Below are positions 8,571-28,335 of a DNA stretch of 28,510 nt, piece after piece (positions within the stretch are counted from its first letter, which is position 1; every line of letters begins with the position of its first letter). Source of the DNA: a virus; the IMG/VR virus record IMGVR_UViG_3300030419_003103, positions 1 to 28,510 of that record; one strand, given 5' to 3'. The translations under genes and the position numbers were made by a program. The notes below the pieces were generated by a model. That model was given only the letters and a program-made list of their open reading frames with translations, was not told the origin of the DNA and made no database searches.

Positions 8571-10136
8571 TTAGAATTGCAAAATAACTTTGATATCTTC
8601 TTTTTGGTTGGATGATCTAGTAATTGCAGGTCTGTTATCAACGTAGATAATGTTGCCCGAATATTTTTTCACTTCTGGCTGTGCCACACCTTTAATAAAA
8701 GATTGTCCTAAGTTATAGGTACGACTATTTATTACGGTATTGATACCTGGGTTAGCAGCACTGCCAAAGGTGGTTTGAATTGCTAATGTAGCACTTCCAC
8801 CAATAATATTAAAGGAACCTCCACTACCAGTATCAGCAGTGAATCTTTGCATTGTAAATCCATAAGTGGGTGATGAATTTTTAGTTCCATCAGTATTAAA
8901 TCCACAATGGAATTTGTCTTGCCAATACTTTAATACACCAGTATTTTGATCGTATTTTACAACTCTACCAAAAGCAGTAGAACCAACACCAATTGTTTGT
9001 GTAATTTGATCATCTGGATTAAAAGTAACTCCACTATATCCTGCTCCAGTCAATTTAAGAGCATAAACAGCACTTGCTTTGTCTGATTCTAAATTTGAAG
9101 TAGAATCATATGCTTGTGGACTTTCAATAACTCCCACTCTTGCAATTTCATTTCCAGTAACAAAATCAGGGTTATCTGAATCATTCTCAATTCTAGAATA
9201 AAGAAGAACATTATATGCACCCAATTCTCTATAAATGTCAGCACCATGTCCTCCTTGAGGAGGAATAATGACATTAAAAATAGGATCAGTTGTTCCTTCA
9301 ATACCTTTAGCAGCAAGATCTAAAGTTCCAAAAGTATAATTAGACCCACCATTCGAAATAGTTACATCAGAAACTTTAGCATCATTATTAGTTGTAACTG
9401 TTGCTTCTGCTCCAGATCCATCACCCTTAATAGGAACCTGAGTATAAACCTTATTAGCAGTTCCTACTCCTACACCCCTATTGACAATGGTTACTATTTT
9501 CAACTGCCCACTAGTTGCAGCATTTTCTCTCACTGCTTTATCATTTGTATTAGTATCCCAATCTTGAGGAACGGGGAGATAATTTGTTGAATCAAATTTA
9601 ACAATATCACTAGGACTGATAGTATAAAGAAATTTCCAAATATAACCATCACCACTAGTACCTGCAGCCCGTGGTTCTAAATCAGTAAAAGTTGGTTCAT
9701 CAAGAGAAGGTCTTCCTGATGGATTATCTGGAGAAGTACCATTTTGAAGACAAATATAAACTCTATAGTCACTATTTAAAACATAATAATTAGCATCATA
9801 TAAAGTTACCGCATCAGATGGTTTAGATACATCAGTAACACTTATATTATTACGATACATATCATAAGTAATTCCTGATGTCCAAGTTTGTTTTCTTACA
9901 ACTTGTCTTACATCAGTCTTACTAATTTTCTTCAAGGCAATCATTGTATCCCAATAATTATCCTCCTGATTGAAATTATCTATAGGAGAAGGTGGGGTTG
10001 TATTCCAATCAGTATCATAATCCGTTGGATTTGGTAATCCAACAAAAGAGTAGTAAGAGTTGGCTGTTGAAGCAACTCCCGCCACAAAATTCTTAGCATT
10101 TAAGATACGAAGTTGATCAGTTATAATGGCAGCCAT
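8571..10136 (-). CDS. 8: Baseplate wedge subunit gp8 (521 aa)
   Basis: This is a homologue of T4 gp8, a wedge protein that joins gp7 and gp10 to gp6. The N-terminal half keeps the gp8 layout: a WNTTPPSP stretch (44-51), NYWDTMIALKKI (60-71), YRVYICLQNG (124-133) and GDGYIWKFLYTI (162-173; T4 has GDGYVWEYLFEI). The C-terminus keeps GNIIYVDNRPAI (494-505; T4 GEMIYMENRPPI) and ends in -ILQF (T4 -ILFTF). T4 gp8 is 334 aa. The extra ~190 residues sit in the C-terminal half and include GG-x-Y repeats (~219-275, ~360-400) like those in the neighbouring giants. The gene has its own late promoter in the gap upstream and no clear Shine-Dalgarno sequence. The order gp6-gp7-gp8 is as in T4. Confidence 0.93.
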   Translation of the reverse strand: MAAIITDQLRILNAKNFVAGVASTANSYYSFVGLPNPTDYDTDWNTTPPSPIDNFNQEDNYWDTMIALKKISKTDVRQVVRKQTWTSGITYDMYRNNISVTDVSKPSDAVTLYDANYYVLNSDYRVYICLQNGTSPDNPSGRPSLDEPTFTDLEPRAAGTSGDGYIWKFLYTISPSDIVKFDSTNYLPVPQDWDTNTNDKAVRENAATSGQLKIVTIVNRGVGVGTANKVYTQVPIKGDGSGAEATVTTNNDAKVSDVTISNGGSNYTFGTLDLAAKGIEGTTDPIFNVIIPPQGGHGADIYRELGAYNVLLYSRIENDSDNPDFVTGNEIARVGVIESPQAYDSTSNLESDKASAVYALKLTGAGYSGVTFNPDDQITQTIGVGSTAFGRVVKYDQNTGVLKYWQDKFHCGFNTDGTKNSSPTYGFTMQRFTADTGSGGSFNIIGGSATLAIQTTFGSAANPGINTVINSRTYNLGQSFIKGVAQPEVKKYSGNIIYVDNRPAITRSSNQKEDIKVILQF

Positions 10137-13100: not shown

Positions 13101-16100
13101 AGAACGTATTGCATTTGCTGATGCTCTCTTAAAGGTATGAGCATATTGGTCTCCAGGACCTGCAACACCAACATTAACAGTAATCTGAGTAGTTGATGTA
13201 GAAGCAACAGATACTGCATTATTGTATGCTGGATCATGTCCTCTAGGATAATAATGAGTTGATACACCAGAATCAATAGCACAGGTCATTCCTAACCCAG
13301 TAAAGATAACAACACTAGATTTACCGCTTGCATTGAATCCATGAGCAGTACTGGTAGTAACTGTCATGACACCACTACTACTTGTATAATCAGCGGTATA
13401 GATGCCAATTGGAGCAGTATAATCACAGGTAAACGCAATACCGGAAATATTGATATTTTCTCCTCTCTCCAACCCATGAGCTTGATGGGTAGTAATTGTA
13501 GTTAATCCAGTTACTGAACTGTACCCCACATTAGAAACATCTACGGGCGCATAGAAGACGTGTGGATTGGTAATTGCTATTCCAGTAATACCACCATTTA
13601 CAACTTGTGCAGTACCAATTGAGACGTAACTGGCAGCATACAAACTTGATGTTTGAATAGCAACATTGACAGTAGGTTGAATATTAAGTCTATATCCAGA
13701 ACCACTAGTTCCCATTCCAACAGACTGAATAGTTCCAGCAGCAGATACAACTGCTGTTCCTCCAGCAGCAACTAAAGGTTGTAATCCAAATCCTTCAGTA
13801 GATCCTACAGAAACAATAACTCCACCTGTAGGGACATTTGCATTATTGACATCATAAGTTACCGAAGATGCTGTACCTGTAAAGAATACACTAGAGATAC
13901 CAGCACTCTCTTTAAACTCATAATCTTCAAGTTCTGATTGAATTCCCTCAGGACCCTGGAAAATACCATTAATAAGAACTACGCCATTACTAGTAGAGAA
14001 TCCGGTAGCATTACTTCCACCATCCTTCTTAAGAGTAAATGTTTTAGCAATCCCTGTAAATTGATTTGAAATATCATCGAAGATAATATTATTAGTATAA
14101 GTCTCTGCAATAGTTCCCGTCTTTCCACTTCTCATAAAGGTTCTACCCTGGAAAGTAGAATGTGTAGAAATTCCAACCCAATCTCTATCGTCTGGAGCAT
14201 TGGTTGTAGAACTTATAGGATCAGGTCCATAAGGTGCTTCAACAAAGTGAATCTTATTCTCACGGATATTATAATTACCCTCAATGGTCTGAACTAAAGC
14301 TCCTGAGCTATGACTAGCAATTCCTGTTCCCATCCAAGGTCTATCAACAAGAATAACATTAGTGCTACCAAGACCAACTGTGTTGATCTTCATAATCTCA
14401 TTATTAATTTGAATTAAATTACCACTAAAGAATGAAGTTATTCCACTAAAGGTAATCCTCTCATCTAATAGTAATACATCCTTCGCAAGAGTAGTTGTAA
14501 CTGATCCTCCAACAATAGGAGACTGGAAGAAGTTGTCAATAGCAATAAGACCCTTCGCATTTTGATTAGTTGAAGTAAAGGAGTGAGATGTTCCAATACC
14601 AACAGATGTAATATCAAATACTACAGGATTTTGTAAAAGTGCTTTTTCAGGACTTGCTGCTAACTTAATAGTACTTTCATTAACCTTGACTGCATAGACT
14701 GTTCTTGGAACTGTAGTAGTTGTACCGAAACCAGGACCACTAGTTGTACCAATACCAATTGCTTGAGTAGAACCAACACCTGCCCATGAATAAGTAAGTT
14801 CTTCACCACTTACAAAATAATGATCTGGAATAGTAATAGTATCAGCAGAAACACTAACAATATCTGAATCACTTCCATCAACAAATCTTTGGAAAATAGG
14901 TCTATCATTATGAAGTAATCCAAATTCCCTCTTAATATCAGTTTCTGTTCCTCTATACTCAGCATAACTGGATCTAATAACTCCACTATTCATATCGATA
15001 GAAGATGTATCGACACTATCCTTAACAACACTTAAAACATTCTGGAATACTCTTACCTGAACCTTAATATTATGATTAGGAATAAAGGTTAAATGCTTTC
15101 TATTAGAACCATCAATATTAGCACCAATAGTTCCTAAACCAGTTGTATGTAATTGAACATTACCATATTCAGTTAAAGCATTATAATCACCATCATCACA
15201 TGCTATAACTTCACACATCTCATAACGCTTATTGGTTGTATCTTCTAACTGAACAACATAATAAGCAGCATGAGAATCTGCATGATATTCTGCAATAGTA
15301 TTAATTCCAGGTGTTCCGGAAGCAGCAATCGAAGTATACCAAGAATCCAACAATCCAGTTTGCAATTCTGTAGCAGTTCCTACTCCAGTAGCAGTAGTAG
15401 TGCTACTTGCAATAGAAATACTCATCGAACTTACACTATGTGCTACACTTACAGCAGAATCAGGTGTAAGGTCTAATTTAATGCGAGCTCCGTCAAGATA
15501 AGCATAGTAAGTTCCTAATCCACCAACCGAGAAAGGACTATTATTATTATCTGATAATTGACCGTATTCAACTAGATCAACAGTAGATCCATCATGAATC
15601 AAATTCAATTCATCAAATTCATAATAGGACCCATCATCTGCACCAATTTCAACAATAATTTTTGAAGAACGGTAAGTAGAAGCGATTCCAACAATAGTTT
15701 GTGCAGAACTTGCTCCACTAGCAATTGCTTTATGATGAGAATTAATATGAACTATACTTCCTAAAGAAGTACTACCTATTCCAGTAGTGCTACTCTTAAG
15801 ATCATGAGAAATGTAAGTAACATCATAATTATTCTTCTTATACTTAATAGGATAGAATTGAAGTTGTCCCTTATCCCCATCTATAGACCAATCAAAAGAT
15901 CCTAAATCTGGATGAGTCTCCACTCTACCATATTGGTTCAAATATCCCTGACTACCATCATGTAATAAGGATACAACCAAAACTTGGCGTTCTTGGGTAT
16001 ATCTCTTATCTCTTACATAAGTAAAGAATTTTCTTGTTTGTGCCGCATTAAGTTTATCATTAGTAATAACTGCATAACGAGTTGCTCTAGGTTTGTGGTT

Positions 16101-19100
16101 AAATTCTCCACTAAAATCATCAATCGTTAAAACCCTATTTCCAACAGATTCAAAATAATCACTCAATACTCTATTTTCAAAAACAATCTCATTAGAGACT
16201 AATGTAGTTCCTACTTTAACAACCTCTTCAGATGCTAAATCAAAAGTATAAACACAATTTAAATCACCTTTTCCTTCAATATCAACCGTAATCTCAGTAT
16301 TACTATCCTCTCCAAAAACAGATGCTCCACCCTTCTCATCTTGAGTTTCAATAACCAAATCAGAGAATTTTAAGAAGCCAGAAGTATGATTTAAAGAACT
16401 AACTGCATTCTTCCAAGTATCATAATCAACTTTAGATTTTAAGGAATAAGAGAAGTATTGATAATAATGATTATCAGGTAGTCTTTGAACATTGTTATTT
16501 AAAATTCCAGTATCATATATCCACCCTTTATTAACTTCAGAATATGGACCCAATTTAATATAAGAATCAAAGTCAATCTTCGACTTAATAACTCCCATTG
16601 TATTGGAAGTCTCACCTCTTATAATATCTCCTATCTTAAGTTCCCTATTAGTAGAAACTTTAAGACTTTCAATTTTATTGTTCCAACTTGCTACAGTTCC
16701 TTTTGCTTCACCACTTACAACAGTTTCTCCTTCAAAGTAATCGTTTACACCAATCTTTATATCAAAAATTGGAAATTCTTTTTGAGGAATAACTCTACCA
16801 CCTATAGACGTAGTAGGATCATAATATCCAGGATATTCACCAGAATCCAATACATCACTCATATCATAAACAATAGACCCTGTATTACCACCCAGAGCTT
16901 CATTAACTTCTACAACTGGGAAAAGTTTATAATTATATTCTGCAGAGTTATATCCCTTAGCAGTGGAACCGACACCTACACTAGTATTTTCAATTAAAAC
17001 ACCATCTCCTACAGCAAATGGGAATAGATCACTAAATCCTGTGTTAAATCCTACAGTTACCCTTTGAGTAGTTGTATTATAAGTTATGGTATTAATACCA
17101 ACTCCATTTGAATTACGAGTAGGAATGATAGTAGGTAATACATTATACATTCCATAAGTATTCTGAACTATCCGTACATTAGTAGCTCCAACTTGATACT
17201 CAAGTTCTACGTCATCAACAACCTTTCCAGTATATCCATCAAGAACCACTAGAGTAGGATCGGTCAAATAATTTTTACCACCAGATGAAATTCCAATACT
17301 CTTAAATGAAGTAAGTGGTTCAATAGTAAGAATCTCTGGAAGATTTAAAGAAGGTTTTAAAGTAAAATCAGTAGGATAATCAAATCCTATATTTTGAATG
17401 GTATCTTTTTCAATTGATCCAATTGAATTACTTCCAATTTCTATTATTGCATCTTTTCCATAAACAGAAGATATTGTACCAATACCAGGAGCTACTTCAT
17501 ACTTTCTTCCGCCATTAAGTACTTCTATATTTGCAATAGCTCCATAAGCACTTAATGATTTGGTAGTATAATATAAATTAGCTGTTGTTGTATTATAAGA
17601 ACTTGCCTCAGGGTATTCTTTTAAATTAAACTTAAATGTAGTTGTACCTAATCCAACTATAGTCTGAGACCCAGAATACTTACTACCAATCAAATTAATT
17701 TGATTATTATTAGTTACATCAGTATCAATAATAATTTGCTTCTTAACTTCTGCAATAAAATCTTCATTAACAGACTCAAATTTATAATAAAGATTTTGTG
17801 GAACATCATCATTTAATATTATTTGAACATATGCACCTGCTTCAAGTCCAACTTTACCACTACGCTCAACTTCAAAATTTACAGAAGTTTCAGTAGATTC
17901 AAATTTATAATTGTAGAGAGGGTCTTTATAGAAATTAAGAGCAAACGCACTATAAGAAGTTAAACCTACTTGAGAAGATAAAGAAGAATCTTCTAGATTA
18001 AATTTAATAATCTTATTCTTATAAACATCAAGTTGAGGATTGATTAAAGATATGGTTCCAGCAGTAGCACTAGTAATATCAATATAATTGGGAATGTTTA
18101 AACTCAAATCATATCTAGTAGCACATAATCTAAACTTATCCTTAGTATAATAAAGGACATAATAAATTCCTTCATTTGATAATCCACCCGAAGCTGACGA
18201 TGCAGTATAAATTACTTTATCTCCAGTCTTTAATCCATGATCACTAGATGTAATAGTATCATTTGCTGTATCAACATCACCAGCAACCCAAGTTAAAGGT
18301 TTAAGTACAATCCTTCTATTGTCATTATCATACTTAACTGTTATAGTCTCAGTATCTATTGGGGTGGCTGTAAATTGAACCTTATCCCCCAATGATAATG
18401 CATGAGTGGCAGCAGTAGAAACAGTAACAATATTTTGACCTATTTCACCTGTTATAGCAGTTCTCTTAGTAGTAAAACTATGATAATTTCCTATTCCAAA
18501 ATTCTGGAAATATGGTAACCTTTGTGTAGTAGTAGATCCAACTCCAACAAAAACTCCAGTAGTTCCCAATCCAACTTTAACAGTTGAAATTCCAATAAAA
18601 TCTCTACTGAAATTAGCTATGTATAGATCTTGTCCTTCTGGTAATTTAAAAGTGGTTCCAGAAGTAATTCCAGTTATAGGGTGCCAACACTGCATCCCAG
18701 TTCCACCATGATTGGAATAAGTAACCTTTTCTCCAGTTTTCAATCCATGATTAGGAATATAGATTTGACTATAAGGAACAAAGACTTGAGTTGCTCCCAA
18801 ACCTGGCATTGAGAAAACTGCAGTAGAACCTATTCCAGCAATAGCAGATGTTCCAATACCAACAGATTCATTAGGATTAAAATAAATTTCTCTATTTGCA
18901 TTATAACTATAGTCCGTCTTAAATCCTGTATTAATAGTAAATTTACGAGGATTTTCATAAAGAAGAGTTCCTGCACTGAATGCAACACCAACGGTCTCAT
19001 TATATTCTCTTACAACTCTAATTCGCTTTCCTATCTGATCAATATTAAGAACTTTAACCTTTTCAGCAGTAGTTCCCAGACCAACATTTAAAGTATCATT

Positions 19101-22100
19101 TTCTCTAATAAAAGGAAAATCTAAAAATCCTGTGGTATAGAAGAAAGTAGTTAATCCTGTTGCTCCGGTAGTTCCTACACCTAGAGTAGTAACAAAATTA
19201 TCAGTCCTTATACCCAACGCATAGGAACCTTCAAGATGAGCAAAATATGTACTTAAACCAGAAACCGTAATCAATTCCCCATTATTAAATCCATGAGGTG
19301 ATGTAGTAAATCCAACAATATTTCCAACTCCATCTAATGTAGCAAAATCAACATTAGAAAATGAAGTAGTAGCAACACTAACAGATGAGATTCCTGGACT
19401 ATAAAGATTAGATACTTTAGCGGCTGCATTAGTACCACCAGTTAAAGCATTATCAAATAAAACTCTATCATTTACTTTATAATTTTTACCTCCCGTCAAG
19501 ATGCCAATAGCATCAATAGAACCCGAAGAAGCAAAATCAATATTTACTGTTTGATTTCTAACACTATCAGGATCAAAAACAAAATCATAGGAACTATTAG
19601 AAGATTTAAATCTATAATCTACAGTATTCCTAAACCATCCAGATTTATTTAAATCATATTCTTCTTGATTAAAATCATTACTAAAGTTTAAAGTATTAGG
19701 TTCTGAATAGAAACAAGTTCCAATTACGTATGGGAATTGTGGGCGATAATATCCTTTAAAAGGTCCGTCAGTATCAGTATTACCAGTTTCAATAGTGGTA
19801 AAATAAGCATATACCCCATTAGGATATTCAGGTGTTACACCAAATCTACCATTATGCTTATCAAGATCTCCTTCTCCTTTAAATACATAATCTTCGTTAA
19901 AGAATCCCTGAGGGAAAACGGATAAAGGAGGTCTATTTGCTTTAGAGACCAATTTATATCCGGATTCCATTGCTCTGGCTGTTCCGCCTTCTGGAGTAGT
20001 ATATCCATAAGGACCATAAATTGGATTTCCATCATAGGCCCATCCAAGAATGGGAGAATGATATGAAGAAGGTTGTTCTTGATTATTTGCTTTTCTTAAA
20101 TCACCAACTCCATATTGTATTTCTCCTCCTTGATTTCTTACATATACCCCCTCTCTAAGTTTTCGAGGAGAGTACATATGACAATACTGTAATCCAAAAT
20201 CACTTCTTTCAGATTCATCAATAACTCCATCATCTGGAGTGAAAGTATCCAAATATTTTCTAAACAGGTTAACTGTCCATGGTTGAATATGAGCTTTTAA
20301 CCTACCTTGAGTTCCTGGAGCTTTTATTGTAAGAGTTGTAGTATTATCATAACCAACTCCACCATTTATTACATGTATGTCTGTAAGTATTCCATTTTCT
20401 ACTACTGGAGTGAGTTTAGCATAATCACCAATTCCATTAATTACAATATTAGGAGGAGTATTATAACCAGATCCCCCTCTTGTAACCAAAACTTCTACAA
20501 TTCTTCCATTATTAACAATAACCTCAGTTTCAGCATTTTTACCGCTCCTAAATTCAAATTCAGGTTGTCTATCCCAATTAAGAATGGAATCAGATCCATA
20601 CTTACTTCCTTTATCAGTTAAATGAACTGAATCAATCTCTCCTCTAAAAATAGGATTTATTTTAGCAGAAAAATCTTGATTGGCTAAAGTAGATACTCCA
20701 ATATTACCAGTAATAACAACAGAAATAGTAGGATAGTTAAATGAATGAGTTCCACTTCCAATCGACTTTAAATCTACATATTGTTCACTATTAAGATATT
20801 CATTCTTAGATGTAGTTCCTAATCCAACAGGGGCTAGTTTAAAAGAATCATTACTTACCTTCTTAACCAAATATTGAGAAGAAGTATTAAGACCCTCAAT
20901 TACACTACCAGTAGTTGCATAAGTTAAAGTTTCTCCAGTTTCATATCCATGAGAATCTATATTAATACGATTCTGAGATGTGCTAATACCACTAGTTGTA
21001 ACAGTTCTCTTTTTATTTTGATACCCTTCCCCACTATTAGTAACATTAATATCAGAAATTATATCTTTCTTTTCTGAAGATCTAAACTCTTGATTACCAA
21101 CACCATATCCCGTAATATAAAACGTGTTTATTCCTGCTATAGCATCTGCTTCAGTAGGATGAAGACGAATTGTTTGAGCATCTACAACAGCAACACGATA
21201 TGTTGAATCTGTTGTAAGTCCTGTTAATCCAGTTTGCTTATCAGTGTCATATATAACTTTCTCATAATCTCTAAACTGGTGATAAGTAGAAAATCCAATT
21301 AAACTGGTACTTGCACTACCTACTTGAATGAATACATCTCCATCACTACCCTTATTGGTTGAATCAAAAGAAACACTATGAGATATAGATCTCATATTAA
21401 TTTCTGCCGCAGCATCCTTACCATTTCCACCAGTAATGGTAATAAATGGCTTATCAACGTAATCAAATCCAGAATTAACAATCTCTATTCTTTCTAAAGA
21501 TCCTTTTACAGCACAAATTCCAGTGGCAGCAATTCCAGTGGCATCTGTAATCTCTAAACTTGGTGGATTGATAATATCATATCCAGATCCTGGTGATTCA
21601 ATTTCAATATCATTAATAGATCCATAGAATAAGGTTTGGGATGACTTATAATTAAGAACCTCAACACCATTAATTAAAACACCAGTTTTTCCAGGGTCTG
21701 TAGTATAATTACCACTCTTATTGAGAGGATCCTTTATTTCTTTTAAAATATTTTGAGACAATATTTCTTTTCTGGCAAAATCATAATCTTGAATAACATT
21801 AGAAGTAACAATACCTGATACAGAAATGAAATCACCACTAAAAATATTAGATTGGCTTTTTGCTAAGCTTAACGTACTAGGACTAACTCTTTTAACAAAA
21901 TAAAGACCTTCTTCCAACTCAGGGAATTTACTAGTAGAAGTAGTAACTCCTGTGATTCCATCAGAATCGACAAATGTAGTAGAAACAATATAGGGTTGAT
22001 AATAAATCCTATCACCAGTAAAGAATCCATGATCATCTGGTGCATTGGGATCATTAGCAAGAACGTCCAATTCAGTTCCACTATAACTTCCACTTAGTGT

Positions 22101-23897
22101 AACTTTTCTATCATATGGATTGATAAATTGATCGTCATAAAATGGTAAAGATGGTGAAGCAACTACTACTTCATCAGAATAATTGGTATAAGTATTCTGA
22201 ATGTTTGCATTAATTTTATTAAGAGGAGAATAAAGAGAAGATTCTACTTTTCTAAGTTTTCTCTGAAGAGAATACGTATAACTTAAGTCTAAAGGTCCTT
22301 GTCCTCTAATTGAAAATCTAGTAGAAGAATTTATAGCAATAATCTCACAATTAGTCTTAACAGTATCACTTCTTGTTAATAAAGCTTCATCCCCAACTCT
22401 AAAGTTATGTTCATCATAACTTACTACTTCATAAGTATAATTTGAAAGATCAACTAAACTAAAAGAGCTAATTTTATAACTATTAGCAATATTTTCAATC
22501 CAATTATCTCTTCTAATAGTAGAAGAAGAAATTCCTAAAGTTTTAATTCTTCCAACATCATTTTTAGAAAAACGATATGTATTTTCAGGAATTACTACAT
22601 CTTCTAAAACTGATCCTACTCTAACCTTAATAGGACTAGATGTAGTAAGTCCAGAATAACCATAAGCATGAACATCTAACCTGACTTCTGCTGCCGTTCC
22701 AATTCCTGAAGTTATTGCAGTACTCGCTATTCCAAAGAATTGAGTAATTGATTTGGAAGAATATGATGCTATACCAGTAGTGCCATTATCATATGTAAGG
22801 AATAAATTACCAGATTGAGCAAATCCTACTGTCGAATCTACATCTAAGAATGTAGCTCCAGCAGAAACTGGAGATATTAATAAACTTTTAGGATGAACAG
22901 AGAATTCACCATAAACAGTTCCATCTAAAACTAGGTCTTTATTATAATCAGCATCAAAACTTAATTTAAAATATTCCGTTGTTCCAATAGAAATTTTTTC
23001 TACGTCAGTAATTGATGCATACGCTTCTGTAATCCCATATTTTTCATTTTCATCTTGATATAATGTATTATTCAATAGGTCAAGCGGATTACCTTCTACA
23101 CGCTCAACAACAATATCCTTTGTTCTTCTCCAACCAGCATCAGAAGGTCTAAACAAATAATTACGAGGTTTAATAACTTCTACATTTTCTCCGTATAAGG
23201 AAGAAAAAAGAATTTCAAATGAACGATCAGTTCCTTTGGAAGAATAGAAATCTTTCGATTGTTTAATAAAAAGATTTTGATTCAAATCCTCTGTTAGAGT
23301 TCTATCAGAAAATCCAGGTAGAAATTGCTGTTTTAATTTGTTTAAAAACTTATGAAAGAATAATCCACTTAAATTATAAACAATCGGTCCTTCAGGAGCA
23401 GTATTACCACCTGCTTCATAGTTTATTACAGTATGTTCTGCAATATTAGATGTAGAAAAAACTAATTCTTCTGGATCATTCGGTTTGGAATATGATGTTA
23501 CACCACTGAATCCCCTTATACATCCCGTAAATGTTCTATCTGTTTTTCCAGTATACGTAATTATTTCATCATCTATCTTAATAATTCCATATCTATCAGG
23601 AAAACCCCGTGTTCCTGATAAAATCTTACCAGTTTTATCAGTAGTAGTACTTACATTAATAATCGTATCACTATAAGAGACATCCTCTGATAGAAGACAG
23701 GTATCAACAGATTTAAAAATCTCATTTAATTTAATATACTTATCAATATTCTGAATAAGATCTGTTGTTCCACTAGGATATTCTTGAGAAATATAATATT
23801 GCTTTAAAAATTCTACAAATAAAGGATTTTCCTCAGCAACAAAATCTGGTAGTTGATTCTCAACAATAGATTGGATCTTTACTCTAGTTTCTGACAT
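10173..23897 (-). CDS. 7: Giant baseplate wedge gp7-like fusion protein (4574 aa)
   Basis: Residues 25-40 (PLFVEFLKQYYISQEY) and 215-244 (KDFYSSKGTDRSFEILF, then LYGENVEVIKP) match the C-terminal part of T4 gp7 (YDFYSTKGIEASYKFLFKVLYNEEVEI in T4, split here for comparison). Its place directly after gp6 and before gp8 is also that of gene 7. The remaining ~4300 residues are unlike T4 gp7 (1032 aa): many H-G-x-x-x-G-(D/E) beta modules, over ten GG-x-GY-x-x-x-P repeats, a YHYH-type domain at ~1235-1366, a run of ~85-aa repeats at ~3500-3900, and near the end (FVNDVLQVPGESYTFSGGS) a module common in fibre proteins. There is no signal peptide or membrane span. The ATG is 3 nt after the gp6 stop. 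The gp7 assignment is strong for the N-terminus; host contact by the rest is inference. Confidence 0.88.
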   Translation of the reverse strand: MSETRVKIQSIVENQLPDFVAEENPLFVEFLKQYYISQEYPSGTTDLIQNIDKYIKLNEIFKSVDTCLLSEDVSYSDTIINVSTTTDKTGKILSGTRGFPDRYGIIKIDDEIITYTGKTDRTFTGCIRGFSGVTSYSKPNDPEELVFSTSNIAEHTVINYEAGGNTAPEGPIVYNLSGLFFHKFLNKLKQQFLPGFSDRTLTEDLNQNLFIKQSKDFYSSKGTDRSFEILFSSLYGENVEVIKPRNYLFRPSDAGWRRTKDIVVERVEGNPLDLLNNTLYQDENEKYGITEAYASITDVEKISIGTTEYFKLSFDADYNKDLVLDGTVYGEFSVHPKSLLISPVSAGATFLDVDSTVGFAQSGNLFLTYDNGTTGIASYSSKSITQFFGIASTAITSGIGTAAEVRLDVHAYGYSGLTTSSPIKVRVGSVLEDVVIPENTYRFSKNDVGRIKTLGISSSTIRRDNWIENIANSYKISSFSLVDLSNYTYEVVSYDEHNFRVGDEALLTRSDTVKTNCEIIAINSSTRFSIRGQGPLDLSYTYSLQRKLRKVESSLYSPLNKINANIQNTYTNYSDEVVVASPSLPFYDDQFINPYDRKVTLSGSYSGTELDVLANDPNAPDDHGFFTGDRIYYQPYIVSTTFVDSDGITGVTTSTSKFPELEEGLYFVKRVSPSTLSLAKSQSNIFSGDFISVSGIVTSNVIQDYDFARKEILSQNILKEIKDPLNKSGNYTTDPGKTGVLINGVEVLNYKSSQTLFYGSINDIEIESPGSGYDIINPPSLEITDATGIAATGICAVKGSLERIEIVNSGFDYVDKPFITITGGNGKDAAAEINMRSISHSVSFDSTNKGSDGDVFIQVGSASTSLIGFSTYHQFRDYEKVIYDTDKQTGLTGLTTDSTYRVAVVDAQTIRLHPTEADAIAGINTFYITGYGVGNQEFRSSEKKDIISDINVTNSGEGYQNKKRTVTTSGISTSQNRINIDSHGYETGETLTYATTGSVIEGLNTSSQYLVKKVSNDSFKLAPVGLGTTSKNEYLNSEQYVDLKSIGSGTHSFNYPTISVVITGNIGVSTLANQDFSAKINPIFRGEIDSVHLTDKGSKYGSDSILNWDRQPEFEFRSGKNAETEVIVNNGRIVEVLVTRGGSGYNTPPNIVINGIGDYAKLTPVVENGILTDIHVINGGVGYDNTTTLTIKAPGTQGRLKAHIQPWTVNLFRKYLDTFTPDDGVIDESERSDFGLQYCHMYSPRKLREGVYVRNQGGEIQYGVGDLRKANNQEQPSSYHSPILGWAYDGNPIYGPYGYTTPEGGTARAMESGYKLVSKANRPPLSVFPQGFFNEDYVFKGEGDLDKHNGRFGVTPEYPNGVYAYFTTIETGNTDTDGPFKGYYRPQFPYVIGTCFYSEPNTLNFSNDFNQEEYDLNKSGWFRNTVDYRFKSSNSSYDFVFDPDSVRNQTVNIDFASSGSIDAIGILTGGKNYKVNDRVLFDNALTGGTNAAAKVSNLYSPGISSVSVATTSFSNVDFATLDGVGNIVGFTTSPHGFNNGELITVSGLSTYFAHLEGSYALGIRTDNFVTTLGVGTTGATGLTTFFYTTGFLDFPFIRENDTLNVGLGTTAEKVKVLNIDQIGKRIRVVREYNETVGVAFSAGTLLYENPRKFTINTGFKTDYSYNANREIYFNPNESVGIGTSAIAGIGSTAVFSMPGLGATQVFVPYSQIYIPNHGLKTGEKVTYSNHGGTGMQCWHPITGITSGTTFKLPEGQDLYIANFSRDFIGISTVKVGLGTTGVFVGVGSTTTQRLPYFQNFGIGNYHSFTTKRTAITGEIGQNIVTVSTAATHALSLGDKVQFTATPIDTETITVKYDNDNRRIVLKPLTWVAGDVDTANDTITSSDHGLKTGDKVIYTASSASGGLSNEGIYYVLYYTKDKFRLCATRYDLSLNIPNYIDITSATAGTISLINPQLDVYKNKIIKFNLEDSSLSSQVGLTSYSAFALNFYKDPLYNYKFESTETSVNFEVERSGKVGLEAGAYVQIILNDDVPQNLYYKFESVNEDFIAEVKKQIIIDTDVTNNNQINLIGSKYSGSQTIVGLGTTTFKFNLKEYPEASSYNTTTANLYYTTKSLSAYGAIANIEVLNGGRKYEVAPGIGTISSVYGKDAIIEIGSNSIGSIEKDTIQNIGFDYPTDFTLKPSLNLPEILTIEPLTSFKSIGISSGGKNYLTDPTLVVLDGYTGKVVDDVELEYQVGATNVRIVQNTYGMYNVLPTIIPTRNSNGVGINTITYNTTTQRVTVGFNTGFSDLFPFAVGDGVLIENTSVGVGSTAKGYNSAEYNYKLFPVVEVNEALGGNTGSIVYDMSDVLDSGEYPGYYDPTTSIGGRVIPQKEFPIFDIKIGVNDYFEGETVVSGEAKGTVASWNNKIESLKVSTNRELKIGDIIRGETSNTMGVIKSKIDFDSYIKLGPYSEVNKGWIYDTGILNNNVQRLPDNHYYQYFSYSLKSKVDYDTWKNAVSSLNHTSGFLKFSDLVIETQDEKGGASVFGEDSNTEITVDIEGKGDLNCVYTFDLASEEVVKVGTTLVSNEIVFENRVLSDYFESVGNRVLTIDDFSGEFNHKPRATRYAVITNDKLNAAQTRKFFTYVRDKRYTQERQVLVVSLLHDGSQGYLNQYGRVETHPDLGSFDWSIDGDKGQLQFYPIKYKKNNYDVTYISHDLKSSTTGIGSTSLGSIVHINSHHKAIASGASSAQTIVGIASTYRSSKIIVEIGADDGSYYEFDELNLIHDGSTVDLVEYGQLSDNNNSPFSVGGLGTYYAYLDGARIKLDLTPDSAVSVAHSVSSMSISIASSTTTATGVGTATELQTGLLDSWYTSIAASGTPGINTIAEYHADSHAAYYVVQLEDTTNKRYEMCEVIACDDGDYNALTEYGNVQLHTTGLGTIGANIDGSNRKHLTFIPNHNIKVQVRVFQNVLSVVKDSVDTSSIDMNSGVIRSSYAEYRGTETDIKREFGLLHNDRPIFQRFVDGSDSDIVSVSADTITIPDHYFVSGEELTYSWAGVGSTQAIGIGTTSGPGFGTTTTVPRTVYAVKVNESTIKLAASPEKALLQNPVVFDITSVGIGTSHSFTSTNQNAKGLIAIDNFFQSPIVGGSVTTTLAKDVLLLDERITFSGITSFFSGNLIQINNEIMKINTVGLGSTNVILVDRPWMGTGIASHSSGALVQTIEGNYNIRENKIHFVEAPYGPDPISSTTNAPDDRDWVGISTHSTFQGRTFMRSGKTGTIAETYTNNIIFDDISNQFTGIAKTFTLKKDGGSNATGFSTSNGVVLINGIFQGPEGIQSELEDYEFKESAGISSVFFTGTASSVTYDVNNANVPTGGVIVSVGSTEGFGLQPLVAAGGTAVVSAAGTIQSVGMGTSGSGYRLNIQPTVNVAIQTSSLYAASYVSIGTAQVVNGGITGIAITNPHVFYAPVDVSNVGYSSVTGLTTITTHQAHGLERGENINISGIAFTCDYTAPIGIYTADYTSSSGVMTVTTSTAHGFNASGKSSVVIFTGLGMTCAIDSGVSTHYYPRGHDPAYNNAVSVASTSTTQITVNVGVAGPGDQYAHTFKRASANAIRSGGDYLHQFVSGVTSCVVSGGNYLHTFDSVGVTSITVTGIGSITPTAATYNPLTGDMVLTVGSGHTYTTSNTVGLGTSSLVFTCALDDDATTHSYPRSTDPVAGVNTAITAISDDTITVNVGASRSVFFDVYDAQYTGSTGIMTLNIGSHSLTTGTSIRLMNNGLSFRCALDDYRSIHTYPRSTDTYYDTAISIAATTSTTIALNVGITSIKYDDVSAATYDATTGDLVLTVGAGHSISEGTSIGIATESLTFTCARDAHATEHSYPRKGDPTYAGVPIDSVGTTTTFTVNVGTSTVPTFYQGGGKVQAAIIAPRAVNNSSSGQDPAFPSTPVTQVLDSKSFRINTGVSTRTHFYARGGKVEKELDVKFDDPLSYSDLDLIYSSESSQGIGTYAKVDVVVGQGSSIIDFEITNTGYAFGQGEILTVHTGGTAGIPTDPSLPYKEFQLTIQTTYSDAFAGWTIGDLQVLDDFDSLCDGSNKSFPIKHNGSYLTIRAAKGSSIDVQSCLLVFVNDVLQVPGESYTFSGGSTLKFSEAPKKGDTTKVLYYKGTGAIDVVFKDVLETVKEGDELTLVNESRDPFNQGYGMLQDERVVTGINTTDSVETNPYVGPGITTDDTLLRPVKWCRQSKDKIIDGIRIGKDRVHYEPLIQPTAFIIQNVGVASTCAWVQNARPFFDPINENNTDTNTYTVELMSQDAKTGAAATANVSTAGTITSLTITDGGYGYSSAPTVTIGSPVGLGTTPGDCQAYATATISSGVVNAITIGSSIGSGYTSTNPPEVLIGDPIPVRGKATSVTYEGDFGIISGISSTSVGVASTGIVFDLFIPPDSELRDSDIVGVTTVSGIATGYYFTVSNSTVGNGVTSIDVSGGTVGIGTTFLDNVYQVAAVSIGVTAAESKTGAGLTAVAKVTVSVANLEGLTGLGYSSYYGNFSWGKILFGDRDDAKAYNAYTNDGVTGLSTGGIVRRLYPLKRNNYQ
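12211..13400 (-). repeat. Tandem ~85-aa repeats within the gp7-like giant
   Basis: Four related units are anchored by tyrosines Y3504, Y3648, Y3734 and Y3819. Each follows the pattern A-x-Y-x-x-x-(T/S)G-x-(M/L)-x-L, then H-x-x-x-x-G-x-x-(I/V), then (F/L)xC-A-x-D, then H-x-YPR-x-x-DP, then an (I/V)-x-(L/V)NVG strand. The last three are spaced 86 and 85 residues apart. The first is separated by 144 residues because a ~59-residue insert carries two copies of GG-x-YLH-x-F. DNA identity between units is modest, so these are old protein repeats rather than recent DNA duplications. A beta-sandwich shaft or adhesion module is likely. Confidence 0.8.
19790..20200 (-). other. YHYH-type domain within the gp7-like giant
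   Basis: Residues ~1235-1366 contain YCHMYSPRKLREG, YHSPILGWAYDG (1279-1290), NPIYGPYGY (1291-1299) and NGRFGVTPEYPNGVYAYF (ending at 1366). This order is that of the YHYH domain family. The name-giving motif is here Y-A-Y-F (1363-1366), so both histidines-in-pair are not kept. The flanking sequence has GG-x-GY beta repeats on the N-terminal side. The domain's biochemical role in phages is unknown to me. Confidence 0.75.
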
Positions 23898-23900
23898 ATC

Positions 23901-25802
23901 TTATCTTACAAAGACTCCGTTTGAATAACTTGATGATACTTTATGATCTGTTCCAGAGACTTGAGCTCCAGAAGAAATTTCATCCTCCCACATATTAACG
24001 AGAACGTTATTAGTATCTAGTTGCAAATAAAGATCCTGTAATCCGATGACATCATTGGAATAAGGGACTGCTTCAATCTCAATAAGTGGAGTTCCTCTAT
24101 TAATAGTAGTATTAATTATATTAATAGGATTCAACATGATTTCACCCTTTATATAATCAATAGATCCGACATTTCGACGAGCAATTTGGGGTTGAGTTGG
24201 TGATAGCAATTTAAAGAGGTTAATAGTTCCCTTTTTACTATCTCCATCAGGAATATCTCCCAAATATACCGTATCCGCAATACCAGCTACCGTAAATCCA
24301 GAAGATTTGATATTATACCCTAGTTGGTCGGAAATATGGAATCTATTACCAAAACATATCTCATATTCAGCAAAAGAATTAAGAACTGCTCTTAAATCCC
24401 TTCTCATTGTCACAGTAGTGATATTAGAAGTAATAGATGAATGACTTTCATCAATTATATTCAAATATTGGCTATATTTGAATCTTGCGCCAAATTTATT
24501 CAATTCTGTAGAATCGGCATAGGTATTAATGTTAGAATAAACATCAGTTTTTACCGTATTTGAAGAAGGTGCTAAATTAGGGTTATAATAAACATTAGAA
24601 GTGGTTTCTACATAAAGATATTTCAAATCAACGATTTCTGCAACAATTCCAGCAACACTATATTTCTGCAAATCCCGTCTAATGTTATCTTTAATCAAAT
24701 TGGACAAATAACGATCATTATAGGGTTTAATACTGATAAAAACTTTTCCAAATTGAGGTGGATTGAGAGATTCTCCTCCATAAGCAGAAACAGACTCAGT
24801 TTCTGGATAAATTGAAGGAATTAGTGCTTCATAATCTGCTGAAGTTACTGCTCTGTTTCTGGAAGCATAAATTCGAGTACCATATTTCTTAATAGACTCG
24901 ATAGTTTCAATATTAGCGCCAGAATGAGAAGAATCTACGACAGTAATTAAAGAAATTCCTGTTTCTACAGATCTATCAGCATCATCTTCCAATATTCCAC
25001 TAAAAATGAAAGAATTAATGTTATTTGCATCTGATCCATTACAAACTGTGTACTCTGCAGTGATATATTCGGGAGAAGAGAGTTTTTTCCCAAAAATACC
25101 ATCACCAAAGATTAATTCATATTCTTCATTCTCAACTTCTTGGATAAAAAAGACTTTTGATTGACCATTTAGATCAAATAGACTATCAGAGAGGTAATAA
25201 TTAACTGCATCACTAGCAGCACTATTAGATCTTACATTTACGTTAATTAAAGTTGTATCAATACCAGAATTATTTAAAATAAATCGCTGATTTGGAGTAA
25301 ATGAGTCAATTGTGAAGTTTTGAGTGATTCTTGCACCCTCATATATGGTAATATCATTAAATTCTGCAACATTATTAACAACCGGAGTAGTAATATCTTC
25401 CGGAATTGAAAATGAATAACTTTCAGACCCAAATGGAGTGGTTGTAGCAACAACTCCTTTCTTTAATGTTAAAGAAGCAGGTGCATTAGTATAACTGCTA
25501 GTATCTACGAAGAATGATACTTTAGCTCTTGATGCTTTTCTTGATCTAGGTACATAACCAATGTTACGAGCAAGAGAAACGACGTTTTCTCTTAATGTTG
25601 CACTATCAATGAATACTTCATTTGTTACCATATTGGTATTATATGAAGTAATATAGGTATTATAGGCAAGAACATCAATAAGTGTTGAAAGGTTAGACCC
25701 TTCAAAGTCATAATCGGTAAAATTAGAGTTCGATCTGATATAATCCTTAATCGAAGTCTTAATTTGATCGAAATCTAAATTTGCGTAATTAACTAATGCC
25801 AT
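23901..25802 (-). CDS. 6: Baseplate wedge subunit gp6 (633 aa)
   Basis: This is a gp6/J-like baseplate wedge protein. It forms the inner ring of the baseplate, together with gp25 and gp53, that rearranges when the tail contracts. Length is close to T4 gp6 (660 aa). The N-terminus has the usual helical start, including TDYDFEGSNLSTLIDVLAYN (29-48) and SYNTNMVTNEVFIDSA (53-68). The core shows FGDGIFGKKL near 233-242, typical of the J-like fold, and YGTRIYASRNRAVTSADYEA near 310-330, another family hallmark. The ATG overlaps the gp25 stop by one base (TAATG), so translation is coupled to gp25. No insertions or breaks are visible. Confidence 0.95.
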   Translation of the reverse strand: MALVNYANLDFDQIKTSIKDYIRSNSNFTDYDFEGSNLSTLIDVLAYNTYITSYNTNMVTNEVFIDSATLRENVVSLARNIGYVPRSRKASRAKVSFFVDTSSYTNAPASLTLKKGVVATTTPFGSESYSFSIPEDITTPVVNNVAEFNDITIYEGARITQNFTIDSFTPNQRFILNNSGIDTTLINVNVRSNSAASDAVNYYLSDSLFDLNGQSKVFFIQEVENEEYELIFGDGIFGKKLSSPEYITAEYTVCNGSDANNINSFIFSGILEDDADRSVETGISLITVVDSSHSGANIETIESIKKYGTRIYASRNRAVTSADYEALIPSIYPETESVSAYGGESLNPPQFGKVFISIKPYNDRYLSNLIKDNIRRDLQKYSVAGIVAEIVDLKYLYVETTSNVYYNPNLAPSSNTVKTDVYSNINTYADSTELNKFGARFKYSQYLNIIDESHSSITSNITTVTMRRDLRAVLNSFAEYEICFGNRFHISDQLGYNIKSSGFTVAGIADTVYLGDIPDGDSKKGTINLFKLLSPTQPQIARRNVGSIDYIKGEIMLNPINIINTTINRGTPLIEIEAVPYSNDVIGLQDLYLQLDTNNVLVNMWEDEISSGAQVSGTDHKVSSSYSNGVFVR

Positions 25803-26203
25803 TATCGTGTTGGTTGTAATGCAAAGTCTAATTGTTGAGGTAATACATCAATTCCAACAATGTCATAATTTAAAGTTACGTCAAATTGATCATTATCGTA
25901 ATTAGGAACGACATGAACGTCTGTTAATACTACCCTAGGTTCAAAGTTTTCTACAGTTATCTTAATTTGATCACTTATTTCAGATGCAGTAAGGTTATCA
26001 ATGTTCTCAAATAGTAAAGAAGTGACATCTGAACCCAAAATAGGGTTAAAAAACCTTTCTCCAGGTACTGTCATAATCAAATTACGTAGAGAACGCGCAA
26101 TTGCTGTCTCATTTTTAATCGCAATGATGTCTTCATTTATAGGATTTACCTTAAATGATGAACTAATGTCTTTAAAAGATTGACTTACCCGTTCTACAGG
26201 CAT
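25802..26203 (-). CDS. 25: Baseplate wedge subunit gp25 (133 aa)
   Basis: This is the gp25/GPW-like lysozyme-fold wedge protein, a small subunit that nucleates the sheath and binds gp6. Length matches T4 gp25 (132 aa). The family block is intact: AIARSLRNLI (35-44), VPGERFFNPILGSDV (46-60) and LLFENID (63-69), then an ENFEPRVVLTDVHV strand region (85-98). The lysozyme-like fold in this family is structural, not enzymatic. The ATG is about 29 nt downstream of a late promoter element. No clear Shine-Dalgarno sequence precedes it. It is coupled to gp6 by a one-base overlap. Confidence 0.95.
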   Translation of the reverse strand: MPVERVSQSFKDISSSFKVNPINEDIIAIKNETAIARSLRNLIMTVPGERFFNPILGSDVTSLLFENIDNLTASEISDQIKITVENFEPRVVLTDVHVVPNYDNDQFDVTLNYDIVGIDVLPQQLDFALQPTR

Positions 26204-26252: not shown

Positions 26253-26453
26253 CTAAAATTCCGCAAGAGGAACCATATCAGTGTCATAATCTAGTCCATC
26301 ATCCTCAAAATCGTCATCTTTTCTCTCATAAACGTCATTTTGGACTAATGTATCACGTTTTTTAGGTGTTATATTGTCATTTGCGATTTCTCTAAGCATT
26401 TTTTGGTGCTGATCATTTGCTAAATTGTCTAAAAAATCGTTTTCTGGAGTCAT
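26253..26453 (-). CDS. Small acidic protein (66 aa), unknown function
   Basis: The protein starts MTPENDFLDNLANDQHQKML and ends in a strongly acidic tail (DDDFEDDGLDYDTD). It is helical in the first third and probably disordered at the end. The frame is open to a GTG at 26468, but the ATG at 26453 is chosen because AGAGGT lies 4 nt upstream of it, while the GTG would have only a U-run behind it. The gene sits between a terminator/late-promoter element and gp25. Acidic tails in small phage proteins can serve as binding handles, but I do not recognise the family. Confidence 0.8.
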   Translation of the reverse strand: MTPENDFLDNLANDQHQKMLREIANDNITPKKRDTLVQNDVYERKDDDFEDDGLDYDTDMVPLAEF

Positions 26454-26457
26454 TTTT

Positions 26458-26463
26458 ACCTCT
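26458..26463 (-). promoter_or_regulatory. Ribosome binding site AGAGGT that fixes the 66-aa gene start
   Basis: AGAGGT is followed by AAAA and then ATG at 26453. It supports the internal ATG rather than the upstream GTG at 26468, whose only upstream sequence is the terminator U-run. Confidence 0.6.
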
Positions 26464-26469
26464 TTCACT

Positions 26470-26491
26470 AAAAAAGGACTCTTTCGAGTCC
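26470..26491 (-). terminator. Intrinsic terminator GGACTC-GAAA-GAGTCC-TTTTTT
   Basis: On the minus strand a perfect 6-bp stem (GGACTC/GAGTCC) closes a GAAA tetraloop and is followed directly by six T residues. This is a textbook Rho-independent terminator. It ends the unit that contains the glycosyltransferase-like gene, the 28-aa peptide and the 49-aa basic peptide. A late promoter core lies immediately upstream (26496-26502), so late transcripts would start at about 26490, inside or at the edge of the stem. Confidence 0.8.
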
Positions 26492-26495
26492 CATT

Positions 26496-26502
26496 TATTT
26501 AT
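26496..26502 (-). promoter_or_regulatory. Late promoter (ATAAATA) overlapping stop codon and terminator
   Basis: The minus strand reads AAAATAAATAAATGG. ATAAATA overlaps the TAA stop of the 49-aa basic peptide (26501-26499). Its predicted start site (~26490) falls at the base of the terminator stem. It would express the 66-aa gene late in infection. Confidence 0.55.
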
Positions 26503-26648
26503 TTTCCTTGTCCTCGATAGACTTTTTTTGCTCTATTTCGAGAACTCGCGGAATATTTGGTATGTTTACCATTCCCCTGACGAGTTTTTTTCGGCGGTGA
26601 ATCTATAAAACCTGTGGTTCCATAAATTCCTTGTTTTGATTTTGCCAT
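26499..26648 (-). CDS. Very basic 49-aa conserved phage peptide
   Basis: The peptide starts MAKSKQGIYGTTGFIDSPPK and ends NRAKKVYRGQGK. It has many K/R residues and almost no acidic ones, so it is likely to bind nucleic acid or an acidic surface such as the ribosome or RNA polymerase. I recall near-identical short proteins as conserved hypotheticals in T4-like cyanophages, which supports it as a real gene. The ATG follows the stop of the 28-aa gene after 3 nt. No Shine-Dalgarno sequence is obvious. Its stop codon is embedded in a late promoter motif. Function unknown. Confidence 0.8.
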   Translation of the reverse strand: MAKSKQGIYGTTGFIDSPPKKTRQGNGKHTKYSASSRNRAKKVYRGQGK

Positions 26649-26651
26649 AAT

Positions 26652-26738
26652 TTAGTGTGGATTAAAGGATTTCATGTAAAGGACAAAGCCACATACCGAG
26701 AGGACGACGATGAGACCGAGTAACGAAGCAATTTGCAT
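26652..26738 (-). CDS. 28-aa single-span membrane peptide
   Basis: The frame encodes MQIASLLGLIVVLSVCGFVL followed by YMKSFNPH: one hydrophobic segment of ~19 residues and a short polar, positively charged tail. This is the layout of a small inner-membrane protein. It begins 9 nt after the glycosyltransferase-like stop and ends 3 nt before the 49-aa gene, which fills an otherwise empty gap exactly. No good Shine-Dalgarno sequence is seen, so expression may depend on translational coupling. It could modulate a membrane enzyme, help lysis, or alter envelope signalling; none can be chosen from sequence. Reality of the gene is moderately certain. Confidence 0.6.
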   Translation of the reverse strand: MQIASLLGLIVVLSVCGFVLYMKSFNPH

Positions 26739-26747
26739 AAAAATTCA

Positions 26748-27521
26748 TCAAATAATACGAGTTTTTTCGTGACCTACACGAATGCGAGGATCGCACCAGA
26801 TTTGATAACCTGCTTCAATAGCATCTAAACAGAACGAGACATCCTCGCCGCACATATCTTGTACGTTCCCTGATTCGAATTCTTGCATCTTAGGAGCAAA
26901 CCAAGGATACTTAATCTTCTTATCCTCAAAAACGCCGTGCTTAATCATTACCCATCCAAATCCTGTATAATCAACAGTAAAGGGTTTCTGACGCTTACCA
27001 ATAGACTCAACGGTTTCATGATTCATAACTCCACCGTTCTTGCGGAAATCTTCTTCCTCTAACCAGTGTGCTACTGAGGTTGTGCTCCCATCTTCAGTGG
27101 CATACCATCCAGCAGTAATTCCCCTCTCTTCACCTTCTGCAGGTACAGCAAGATCACATAGTTGCCAGAACTTCTCTGAACTAAAGACAATATCCGAGTC
27201 AATCCAAAGTTGATAATCATACTTTAATTTACCATCCCATGGAACTTGATCTGGTCCACGTAAAACATTAGCACCTAAACACTTACAACGTGCAAAGTTA
27301 ACCATTGATGAATAGTCCTGGGATATCTGAATAGACATACCGTTCTGAACCATGTCAAAGCATAACTGCACAAAGTTCTTCATAAAAATGTAAGAACATC
27401 CACGTCCTGGAAGACAAAACACAATTGTCTTTCCTTTCATTCGTGCTTTAATTGCATCAATATCCCAAGCAGGTTCTTTCTTTTTTGGGGTATTGGCTTT
27501 AACTGTAAATCCTTTTGCCAT
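26748..27521 (-). CDS. Glycosyltransferase-like protein, GT-A type (257 aa)
   Basis: The fold reads as a nucleotide-sugar-type glycosyltransferase: an initial beta strand KTIVFCLPGRGCS (31-43), a D-x-D motif in LWIDSDIVF (105-113; D108 and D110 would hold the metal and the sugar nucleotide), then GEDVSFC (225-231) and VGHEK (249-253), which sit where the catalytic base and late metal-binding His lie in related enzymes. There is no signal peptide or membrane span. A lysine-rich tail opens the protein (VKANTPKKKEPAW). The ATG has GAAGGT about 10 nt upstream, behind a perfect sigma-70 promoter. Phage versions may modify virion proteins, phage DNA or host surface glycans. The substrate is not known. 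Confidence 0.8.
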   Translation of the reverse strand: MAKGFTVKANTPKKKEPAWDIDAIKARMKGKTIVFCLPGRGCSYIFMKNFVQLCFDMVQNGMSIQISQDYSSMVNFARCKCLGANVLRGPDQVPWDGKLKYDYQLWIDSDIVFSSEKFWQLCDLAVPAEGEERGITAGWYATEDGSTTSVAHWLEEEDFRKNGGVMNHETVESIGKRQKPFTVDYTGFGWVMIKHGVFEDKKIKYPWFAPKMQEFESGNVQDMCGEDVSFCLDAIEAGYQIWCDPRIRVGHEKTRII

Positions 27522-27544
27522 AATTGCTTAATACCTTCAATTCA

Positions 27545-27573
27545 ATTATACACTGTTATATGTAGTGTGTCAA
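27545..27573 (-). promoter_or_regulatory. Perfect sigma-70 promoter (TTGACA-17-TATAAT)
   Basis: The minus strand has TTGACA at 27573-27568, a 17-nt spacer, and TATAAT at 27550-27545, with TG directly before the -10. Both hexamers and the spacing match the bacterial consensus exactly. Initiation would be near 27538, giving a leader of ~17 nt to the glycosyltransferase-like ATG with GAAGGT in it. The -35 lies in the last codons of the oxygenase-like gene. This is the type of element used for host-polymerase (early) transcription. Confidence 0.85.
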
Positions 27574-28083
27574 TTGTTCTAAGAAGAATAGTATTACTAG
27601 TCGGTTATCCACAAATTTATTAAGACTATGTGGTATGGTTGGATCATACATAACCATCTTATTATACTTATTTTTAAATTCTTTTATCTTTTTATTATCT
27701 TCATTATATAAGGAAGTACCCGCTCTTGGATCAATATCTTTCGTTAGATAAATCACTCCTGCTTTTATAAGATTACTTGCATCCTTATGAATAGGTTGTA
27801 TAGTTTTATCCTTAGAATTAATCTTAGAAAAATATGTTGCAAATACCCACTGAGTATTAGGATGTTTATTTAAATCAACTATATGAGGATGTACTATCTT
27901 ATTACACAGGTAATCAAAAAACCCTCTGTGCTCTTTGTGTATTTCTCTACTTCTTAAACCAGCATACTTTCCACAACTGTTTGGTTTAGGATGTATATCA
28001 TAAGGATAATAGGTTAATGTCTTTGAGAATTCAACTATACCATCAGGATTCTCAAAGAAGTTATTAACCTCTTTATATTTCAT
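27556..28083 (-). CDS. 2-oxoglutarate/Fe(II)-dependent oxygenase-like protein (175 aa)
   Basis: The sequence shows the oxygenase metal triad: H99-x-D101 in QPIHKDASN, and the distal H152 in PTIPHSLNKF. R161, in NRLVILFFLE, sits where the arginine that binds the 2-oxoglutarate carboxylate is usual. Strand AGVIYLTKD (108-116) between them fits the jelly-roll core. Length is short but normal for phage members. There is no signal peptide. The ATG directly abuts the stop codon of the 83-aa gene. Cyanophages often carry such oxygenases in structural clusters, where they may hydroxylate proteins or sugars. The target is unknown. Confidence rests on the correct order and spacing of the four residues. 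Confidence 0.75.
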   Translation of the reverse strand: MKYKEVNNFFENPDGIVEFSKTLTYYPYDIHPKPNSCGKYAGLRSREIHKEHRGFFDYLCNKIVHPHIVDLNKHPNTQWVFATYFSKINSKDKTIQPIHKDASNLIKAGVIYLTKDIDPRAGTSLYNEDNKKIKEFKNKYNKMVMYDPTIPHSLNKFVDNRLVILFFLEQLTHYI

Positions 28084-28335
28084 TTAATAACTATCTCCAC
28101 CTTCTGGTTCTTTCCAGGTAACCGTACCGCCTCCTCCCCCAATACCTGAAGGAAGTCTTTCATATGATAAATCATCGAGTGTATAATCTGTCTTCATTAA
28201 TCCTACCATCCCTTGGAGTTCTGCCCACTTTTCTTTAAACTCACTTTCATTCAGACAATTATAAAGACACTGCCCTTTGGCATATATGTGATAGATTTCT
28301 GTGTCCCCTGTGATGTTCTGAATAAAACCTGACAA
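28084..28335 (-). CDS. Conserved 83-aa T4-like phage protein with TTG start
   Basis: The protein begins (TTG)SGFIQNITGDTEIYHIYAK and has a central ECK-like helix (EFKEKWAELQGMVGLM, 32-47) and a glycine-rich tail (GIGGGGGT, 64-71) ending EPEGGDSY. I recall close relatives as conserved hypotheticals in cyanophage genomes, often near the baseplate cluster. The start is TTG at 28335: a full GGAGGT lies 7 nt upstream, an in-frame TAA is just beyond, and the next Met is residue 43, which would lose the conserved N-terminus. A late promoter precedes it. Function is unknown. Confidence 0.85.
   Translation of the reverse strand: MSGFIQNITGDTEIYHIYAKGQCLYNCLNESEFKEKWAELQGMVGLMKTDYTLDDLSYERLPSGIGGGGGTVTWKEPEGGDSY

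Follow-up and report, generated by a model that had tools for sequence, protein, structure and literature searches.

A putative early, terminator-bounded glycosyltransferase unit closing the gp46-gp25 hotspot of T4-like marine cyanophages

How does a small group of genes headed by a host-type promoter come to stand beside the late tail genes of a marine phage, and when during infection would it be expressed? The question is raised by a viral sequence of 28.5 kb (28,510 nucleotides, a virus record by itself and referred to here as the window), which is a fragment of a T4-like marine cyanophage (Kyanoviridae-type) with the baseplate genes gp25 and gp6 and giant structural ORFs. Its nearest kin among phage records are myoviruses of Synechococcus and Prochlorococcus, e.g., S-SM2, SynMITS9220M01, Bellamy, P-TIM68, and P-SSM2. 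On the minus strand, a sigma-70 promoter is followed by the gene of a predicted glycosyltransferase (GT), a gene for a 28-aa peptide, a gene for a 49-aa protein, and a terminator. From the sequence and its relatives, we read this as an early, terminator-bounded unit that closes a gene hotspot of these phages, with a probability of roughly 0.7. The unit is genuine and strongly conserved, and its layout makes sense. In kind it is largely familiar, and we regard it as a clear instance of an arrangement already known and not as a wholly new one. Elsewhere in the window there are very large structural ORFs of 2534 aa (960-8564) and 4574 aa (10173-23897), the latter where relatives have gp7 (baseplate wedge initiator). 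No known structured RNA was found within the window.

The initial annotation had described a perfect TTGACA-17-TATAAT promoter at the head of the unit and had proposed early or independent expression from it. The promoter was found on the minus strand at 27573-27545 (TTGACA at 27573-27568, a 17-nt spacer, TATAAT at 27550-27545), with a predicted start near 27538. It matches the consensus at 12/12 positions, which happens once in the window against 0.07 expected, and no other perfect promoter is present there. Its -35 hexamer and part of the spacer lie within the last codons of a 2OG-Fe(II) oxygenase-like ORF directly upstream (27556-28083, minus strand; phrog_1644, E 3e-19; PF13640, E 0.007, below the Pfam cut-off). 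GT orthologues were gathered from phage records and viral contigs and reduced to 120 distinct upstream regions, in which a sigma-70 site was counted when it matched at least 10/12 positions at 16-18 nt spacing. Such a site precedes the orthologous GT gene at the same place in 120/120 regions, and 59 of the sites are perfect (12/12). The information by column peaks in TTGACA, TATAAT, and the TGAAGG ribosome-binding region, whereas the flanks drift. The distance to the gene is nearly fixed, with the -10 hexamer ending 21-29 nt before the GT start in the sampled GT loci. The low expectation together with this conservation rules out a chance promoter, and the conservation also lends support to independent expression of the unit. 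Among distant relatives, S-CAM9 retains a near-consensus site before GT, the sigma-70 hexamers of ACG-2014f and Sf-FS3 are weak, and S-TIM5 has no such promoter before its GT. The S-TIM5 gene (L251, 2974-3648) is 54% identical and has a different setting, with a tail fibre gene, tRNAs, and pstS around it.

The position of the unit turned out to be different from the one first proposed, inside a late structural block. It lies upstream of gp25 (25802-26203, minus strand; PF04965, E 1e-13; phrog_261), the first gene of that block, and hence at its edge. The interval from gp46 to gp25 has been reported as a gene hotspot of marine cyanomyoviruses (PMC3037559). In annotated relatives, many small hypothetical genes in a row lead up to GT, and gp25-gp6-gp7 follow it, which places the unit last in this early small-gene hotspot. 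For the gene just upstream of GT, relatives show a sigma-70 promoter in 53/101 cases and a late box in 10/101. The hotspot position and the promoters of the upstream gene thus mark the unit as the early/late edge and not as an island in the late block.

At the other end of the unit, a stem-loop followed by a T-run, GGGACTC-GAAA-GAGTCC(T), is located at 26492-26475 (minus strand) and has a folding z of -3.7. Hairpins with a T-run starting at most 20 nt from the phrog_516 (49-aa gene) stop recur in 40/125 distinct loci versus 0.1 expected from mononucleotide shuffles, which supports the stem-loop as a terminator closing the unit. Their GC-rich stems differ widely in sequence, so it is the structure that is kept and not the sequence, as is the case for an intrinsic terminator. 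Loci with the terminator directly behind phrog_516 thus make up about one-third, which speaks somewhat against the reading as a terminator-bounded unit; elsewhere, different hairpins are present or cargo genes come first. Beyond the terminator lies a gene for a 71-aa acidic protein (26253-26468, minus strand; homologues in 69/92 sequences compared). The late box AATAAATA was found before this gene and before gp25, at -37; further late boxes are ACTAAATA before 28084-28335 and GCTAAATA before 8571-10136. All the surrounding genes had been said to have late promoters, but not every neighbor has one of its own, several being arranged back-to-back. In the window, AATAAATA overlaps the stop codon of the 49-aa gene directly before the terminator (26496-26503, to within a base or two, minus strand, in the region 26490-26510), and there early termination and late initiation would nearly coincide. 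This cannot be considered a general feature, since a late box so close to the phrog_516 stop was found in 6/119 distinct loci.

The spacer of the sigma-70 promoter contains a new element, a late-like box of the form [AC]TANATA (ACTACATA in the window, 27559-27566, minus strand). TANATA, usually TACATA, is present in 95% of 96 distinct GT-promoter spacers versus 6% (maximum 13.5%) after shuffling of the same spacers, a comparison that ignores the kinship of loci related by descent. In 102 other distinct early-type promoter spacers from the same loci, the figure is 1%. To our knowledge, the conservation of such a spacer box over some 120 loci has not been described previously. The box shifts by several positions inside the spacer between loci, and A or C is found directly 5' of it in 93/94 occurrences. 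The canonical late box NATAAATA does not overlap the early promoter of the window, where ACTACATA is found instead, and TAAATA accounts for just ca. 9% of GT spacers, whereas the gp25 late boxes of the same loci are [AC]TAAATA, almost always TAAATA. The GT spacer box resembles the late box but differs from its canonical form, and so may not act as a late promoter.

Given this resemblance to [AC]TAAATA, an early-plus-late-like middle promoter is plausible, and expression of the GT unit need not be purely early. For S-PM2 and Syn9, middle genes have been proposed to be driven by promoters in which early and late elements overlap (PMC2984593). We favor, at about even odds, the view that the spacer box provides a dual input (early plus late-like, i.e., middle). 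It is also possible, at somewhat less than even odds, that this is a plain early promoter in which the sigma-70 hexamers alone matter, with TANATA being inherited or aiding sigma-70 opening without any late or middle input. The majority of the GT boxes are indeed TACATA and not the strict late TAAATA, and some of the conservation must reflect descent, since the loci are all related. However, the near absence of the box from the other early promoters of the same loci speaks against a plain early promoter, as does the A or C that precedes the box wherever it moves within the spacer, as with true late boxes. Also against it, in ACG-2014f (L253, upstream of 2501) CTACATA has been retained before GT though the sigma-70 hexamers are degraded. 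Compound sites like that of GT were found by whole-record scans before gp32 in P-SSM4 and S-RIM8 and at the corresponding gp32 places in P-RSM6 and probably ACG-2014b, with a reversed-pattern control giving ca. one-third as many matches as the pattern. S-SSM7 and S-SCSM1 were added by inspection of the gp32 upstream regions. The same arrangement of sigma-70 site and TANATA is seen in gp32 upstream regions at L114:895-923, L126, and L130. A compound promoter before psbA was considered as well and is not general. A more far-reaching reading, which seems unlikely, is that marine cyanomyoviruses use [AC]TANATA as an element dedicated to middle-mode control and shared with, e.g., some gp32 promoters. 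If true, the box would be read by a factor that the phage encodes (gp55/gp33 or an activator yet to be named), and the middle promoter that has long been missing for these phages would be identified. The conserved spacer box is the part of the unit worth testing.

The slot between GT and gp25 has a wide variety of cargo in relatives, with ferredoxin/“PurM,” SpeD, CP12, Trp halogenase, 2OG oxygenase, FkbM methyltransferase, or SET-domain genes. These labels look doubtful for the protein called “PurM” in some records, as this protein between GT and gp25 (L001:5933-6616 and L228:2834-3607) matches ferredoxin in PHROG and has no Pfam match. Such variety would be expected if the promoter belonged to an exchangeable slot before gp25, with GT as its commonest first occupant and the companions as unrelated cargo. 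P-SSM4, which has no GT, points in the same direction with an 11/12 promoter, containing ATAGATA in the spacer, upstream of phrog_516. On the other hand, the spacing between promoter and GT start hardly varies across the sampled GT loci, and the compound promoter is absent from most of the few GT-less loci examined. We consider the exchangeable slot possible but not the leading explanation, and continue to treat the promoter as that of a GT unit.

The companion genes differ from GT in their distribution. The initial annotation had described a GT-like protein, a 28-aa membrane peptide, and a 49-aa very basic peptide, and the ORFs and their computed properties agree with this. The 28-aa product (26652-26738, minus strand) is hydrophobic (GRAVY 1.37), probably with a single transmembrane segment. 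It has the conserved pattern MQIAS..LG..VVL..CGF.LY.K...PH, and the peptide is kept while the codons differ between the window and two other loci (L011 and L013). With homologues in ca. five sampled loci, all close and from few lineages, it is, judging from these synonymous changes, a real, coding, lineage-specific gene. The 49-aa product (26499-26648, minus strand; pI 10.9, charge +11.6) matches the phrog_516 profile over residues 1-49, its full length (E 3e-23). This family accompanies GT in 88/91 GT-bearing sequences compared, but it is widespread in marine cyanomyoviruses and mostly found without GT (443 phage records versus 103 for GT). The proposal that the three genes move together fails on these numbers, and their unequal distribution rules out a three-gene mobile cassette. 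Plasmid transfer of the cargo was discarded because GT had no match in plasmids. A bacterial source of GT was discarded too, as the ten matches in GTDB genomes (74-84% identical) are on MAG contigs resembling cyanophage contamination. These contigs (L149-L158) are labelled Chlamydiae, Euryarchaeota, Flavobacteriales, and others, and contamination is the most likely origin of their GT.

GT itself (26748-27521, minus strand; 257 aa) matches phrog_1574 (E 2e-116) and, weakly, phrog_34859 (phage glycosyltransferase; E 4e-6), and its orthologues include PSSM2_106 of P-SSM2 (T4-GC 102). The sequence had no match in Pfam, NCBIfam, or PDB. A DxD motif is present in WIDSDIVF, with D108 and D110 invariant among 34 orthologues, as are GEDVSFC and VGHEK. 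An AlphaFold2 model of modest quality (mean pLDDT 60, pTM 0.63) was compared with known structures by Foldseek and VIA. The top PDB matches of this modest model are mostly GT-A (best Foldseek E 1.4e-4, Z up to 7.7 and so below 8, TM ca. 0.4). The enzyme looks like a predicted glycosyltransferase of GT-A fold, and the DxD motif, the weak phrog_34859 match, and the structural matches support the original description as glycosyltransferase-like. No support was found for a T4-type GT-B DNA glucosyltransferase; the T4 alpha- and beta-GT families are absent from the PHROG and Pfam matches, while absence from the fold lists is no proof.

As to what GT modifies, we tentatively suggest that the likeliest target is on the host side, either a glycan of the cell surface or some other acceptor, which is reasonable by analogy with the LPS genes discussed for P-SSM2 (PMC2984593). 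The substrate of GT might instead belong to the phage itself (a capsid or tail protein, or DNA), in which case the timing of GT would serve virion building and not host alteration. It does adjoin baseplate genes, its model matches structures such as the PBCV-1 capsid glycosyltransferase and LH3/mimivirus-like protein glycosyltransferases, and the 2OG oxygenase-like ORF is directly upstream in the window. We nonetheless regard a phage target as somewhat less likely than a host one, though a serious rival, since inspection of clusters puts a 2OG oxygenase near GT in about a dozen of 124 loci, the promoter is of an early and not a late type, and there is no evidence that cyanomyoviruses glycosylate DNA (PMC2984593). 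The same low count speaks against an obligate pair of GT and 2OG oxygenase, comparable to the LH3-like hydroxylase/glycosyltransferase, attractive as the idea is. Oxygenases like 27556-28083 are seen near GT in P-SSM2, S-SCSM1, and Sf-FS3, a minority of loci.

Early genes of these phages are read by the unmodified host sigma-70 polymerase (PMC2984593). Since a host-type promoter heads the unit and a stop signal closes it ahead of the late tail genes, it is probably on early. We infer that it is most likely expressed early to middle by the host RNA polymerase and insulated from late gp25 transcription. The host polymerase with its primary sigma factor would start near 27538, and the transcript would cover GT, the lineage-specific membrane peptide, and phrog_516. 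Transcription would then stop at the 26475-26492 hairpin, so that early transcripts would not reach gp25 and the baseplate genes, for which separate late boxes are present. A further input, later in infection, would most likely come from the [AC]TANATA spacer box, and expression would then be early to middle. The GT product is predicted to act as a GT-A-type enzyme using a nucleotide sugar.

The early-to-middle switch of cyanomyoviruses has been described as unclear (PMC2984593). A promoter found in more than 100 distinct phage contigs, with an extra box and a terminator before the late block, offers a concrete site at which to study it. GT is common in marine viromes, and if it does alter the host surface, it would have a bearing on superinfection and on the grazing of infected cells.

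Several known systems resemble parts of this unit. GpgS/MpgS, GlfT2, the LH3 glycosyltransferase domain, and the PBCV-1 capsid glycosyltransferase resemble the window GT in its DxD motif and, as far as the modest model goes, in its predicted fold, but by sequence the window GT matches no PDB chain and no Pfam or NCBIfam family. PSSM2_106 of P-SSM2 and SSM2_091 of S-SM2 (T4-GC 102) are orthologues with 77-85% identity at the same place upstream of gp25 and with the same promoter type; their companion genes differ from those of the window, and most of the records are annotated as hypothetical and a few as glycosyltransferase. The gp46-gp25 hotspot (PMC3037559) has the same location, with variable small and metabolic genes, and what is defined here are the start and stop signals of its last unit. 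Finally, the overlapping early/late (“middle”) promoters of S-PM2/RB49 (PMC2984593) likewise combine a sigma-70 promoter with an overlapping late-type box ahead of a gene expected to be expressed early to middle, but in the promoters of the type described here the box, TACATA in most cases, is located within the spacer.
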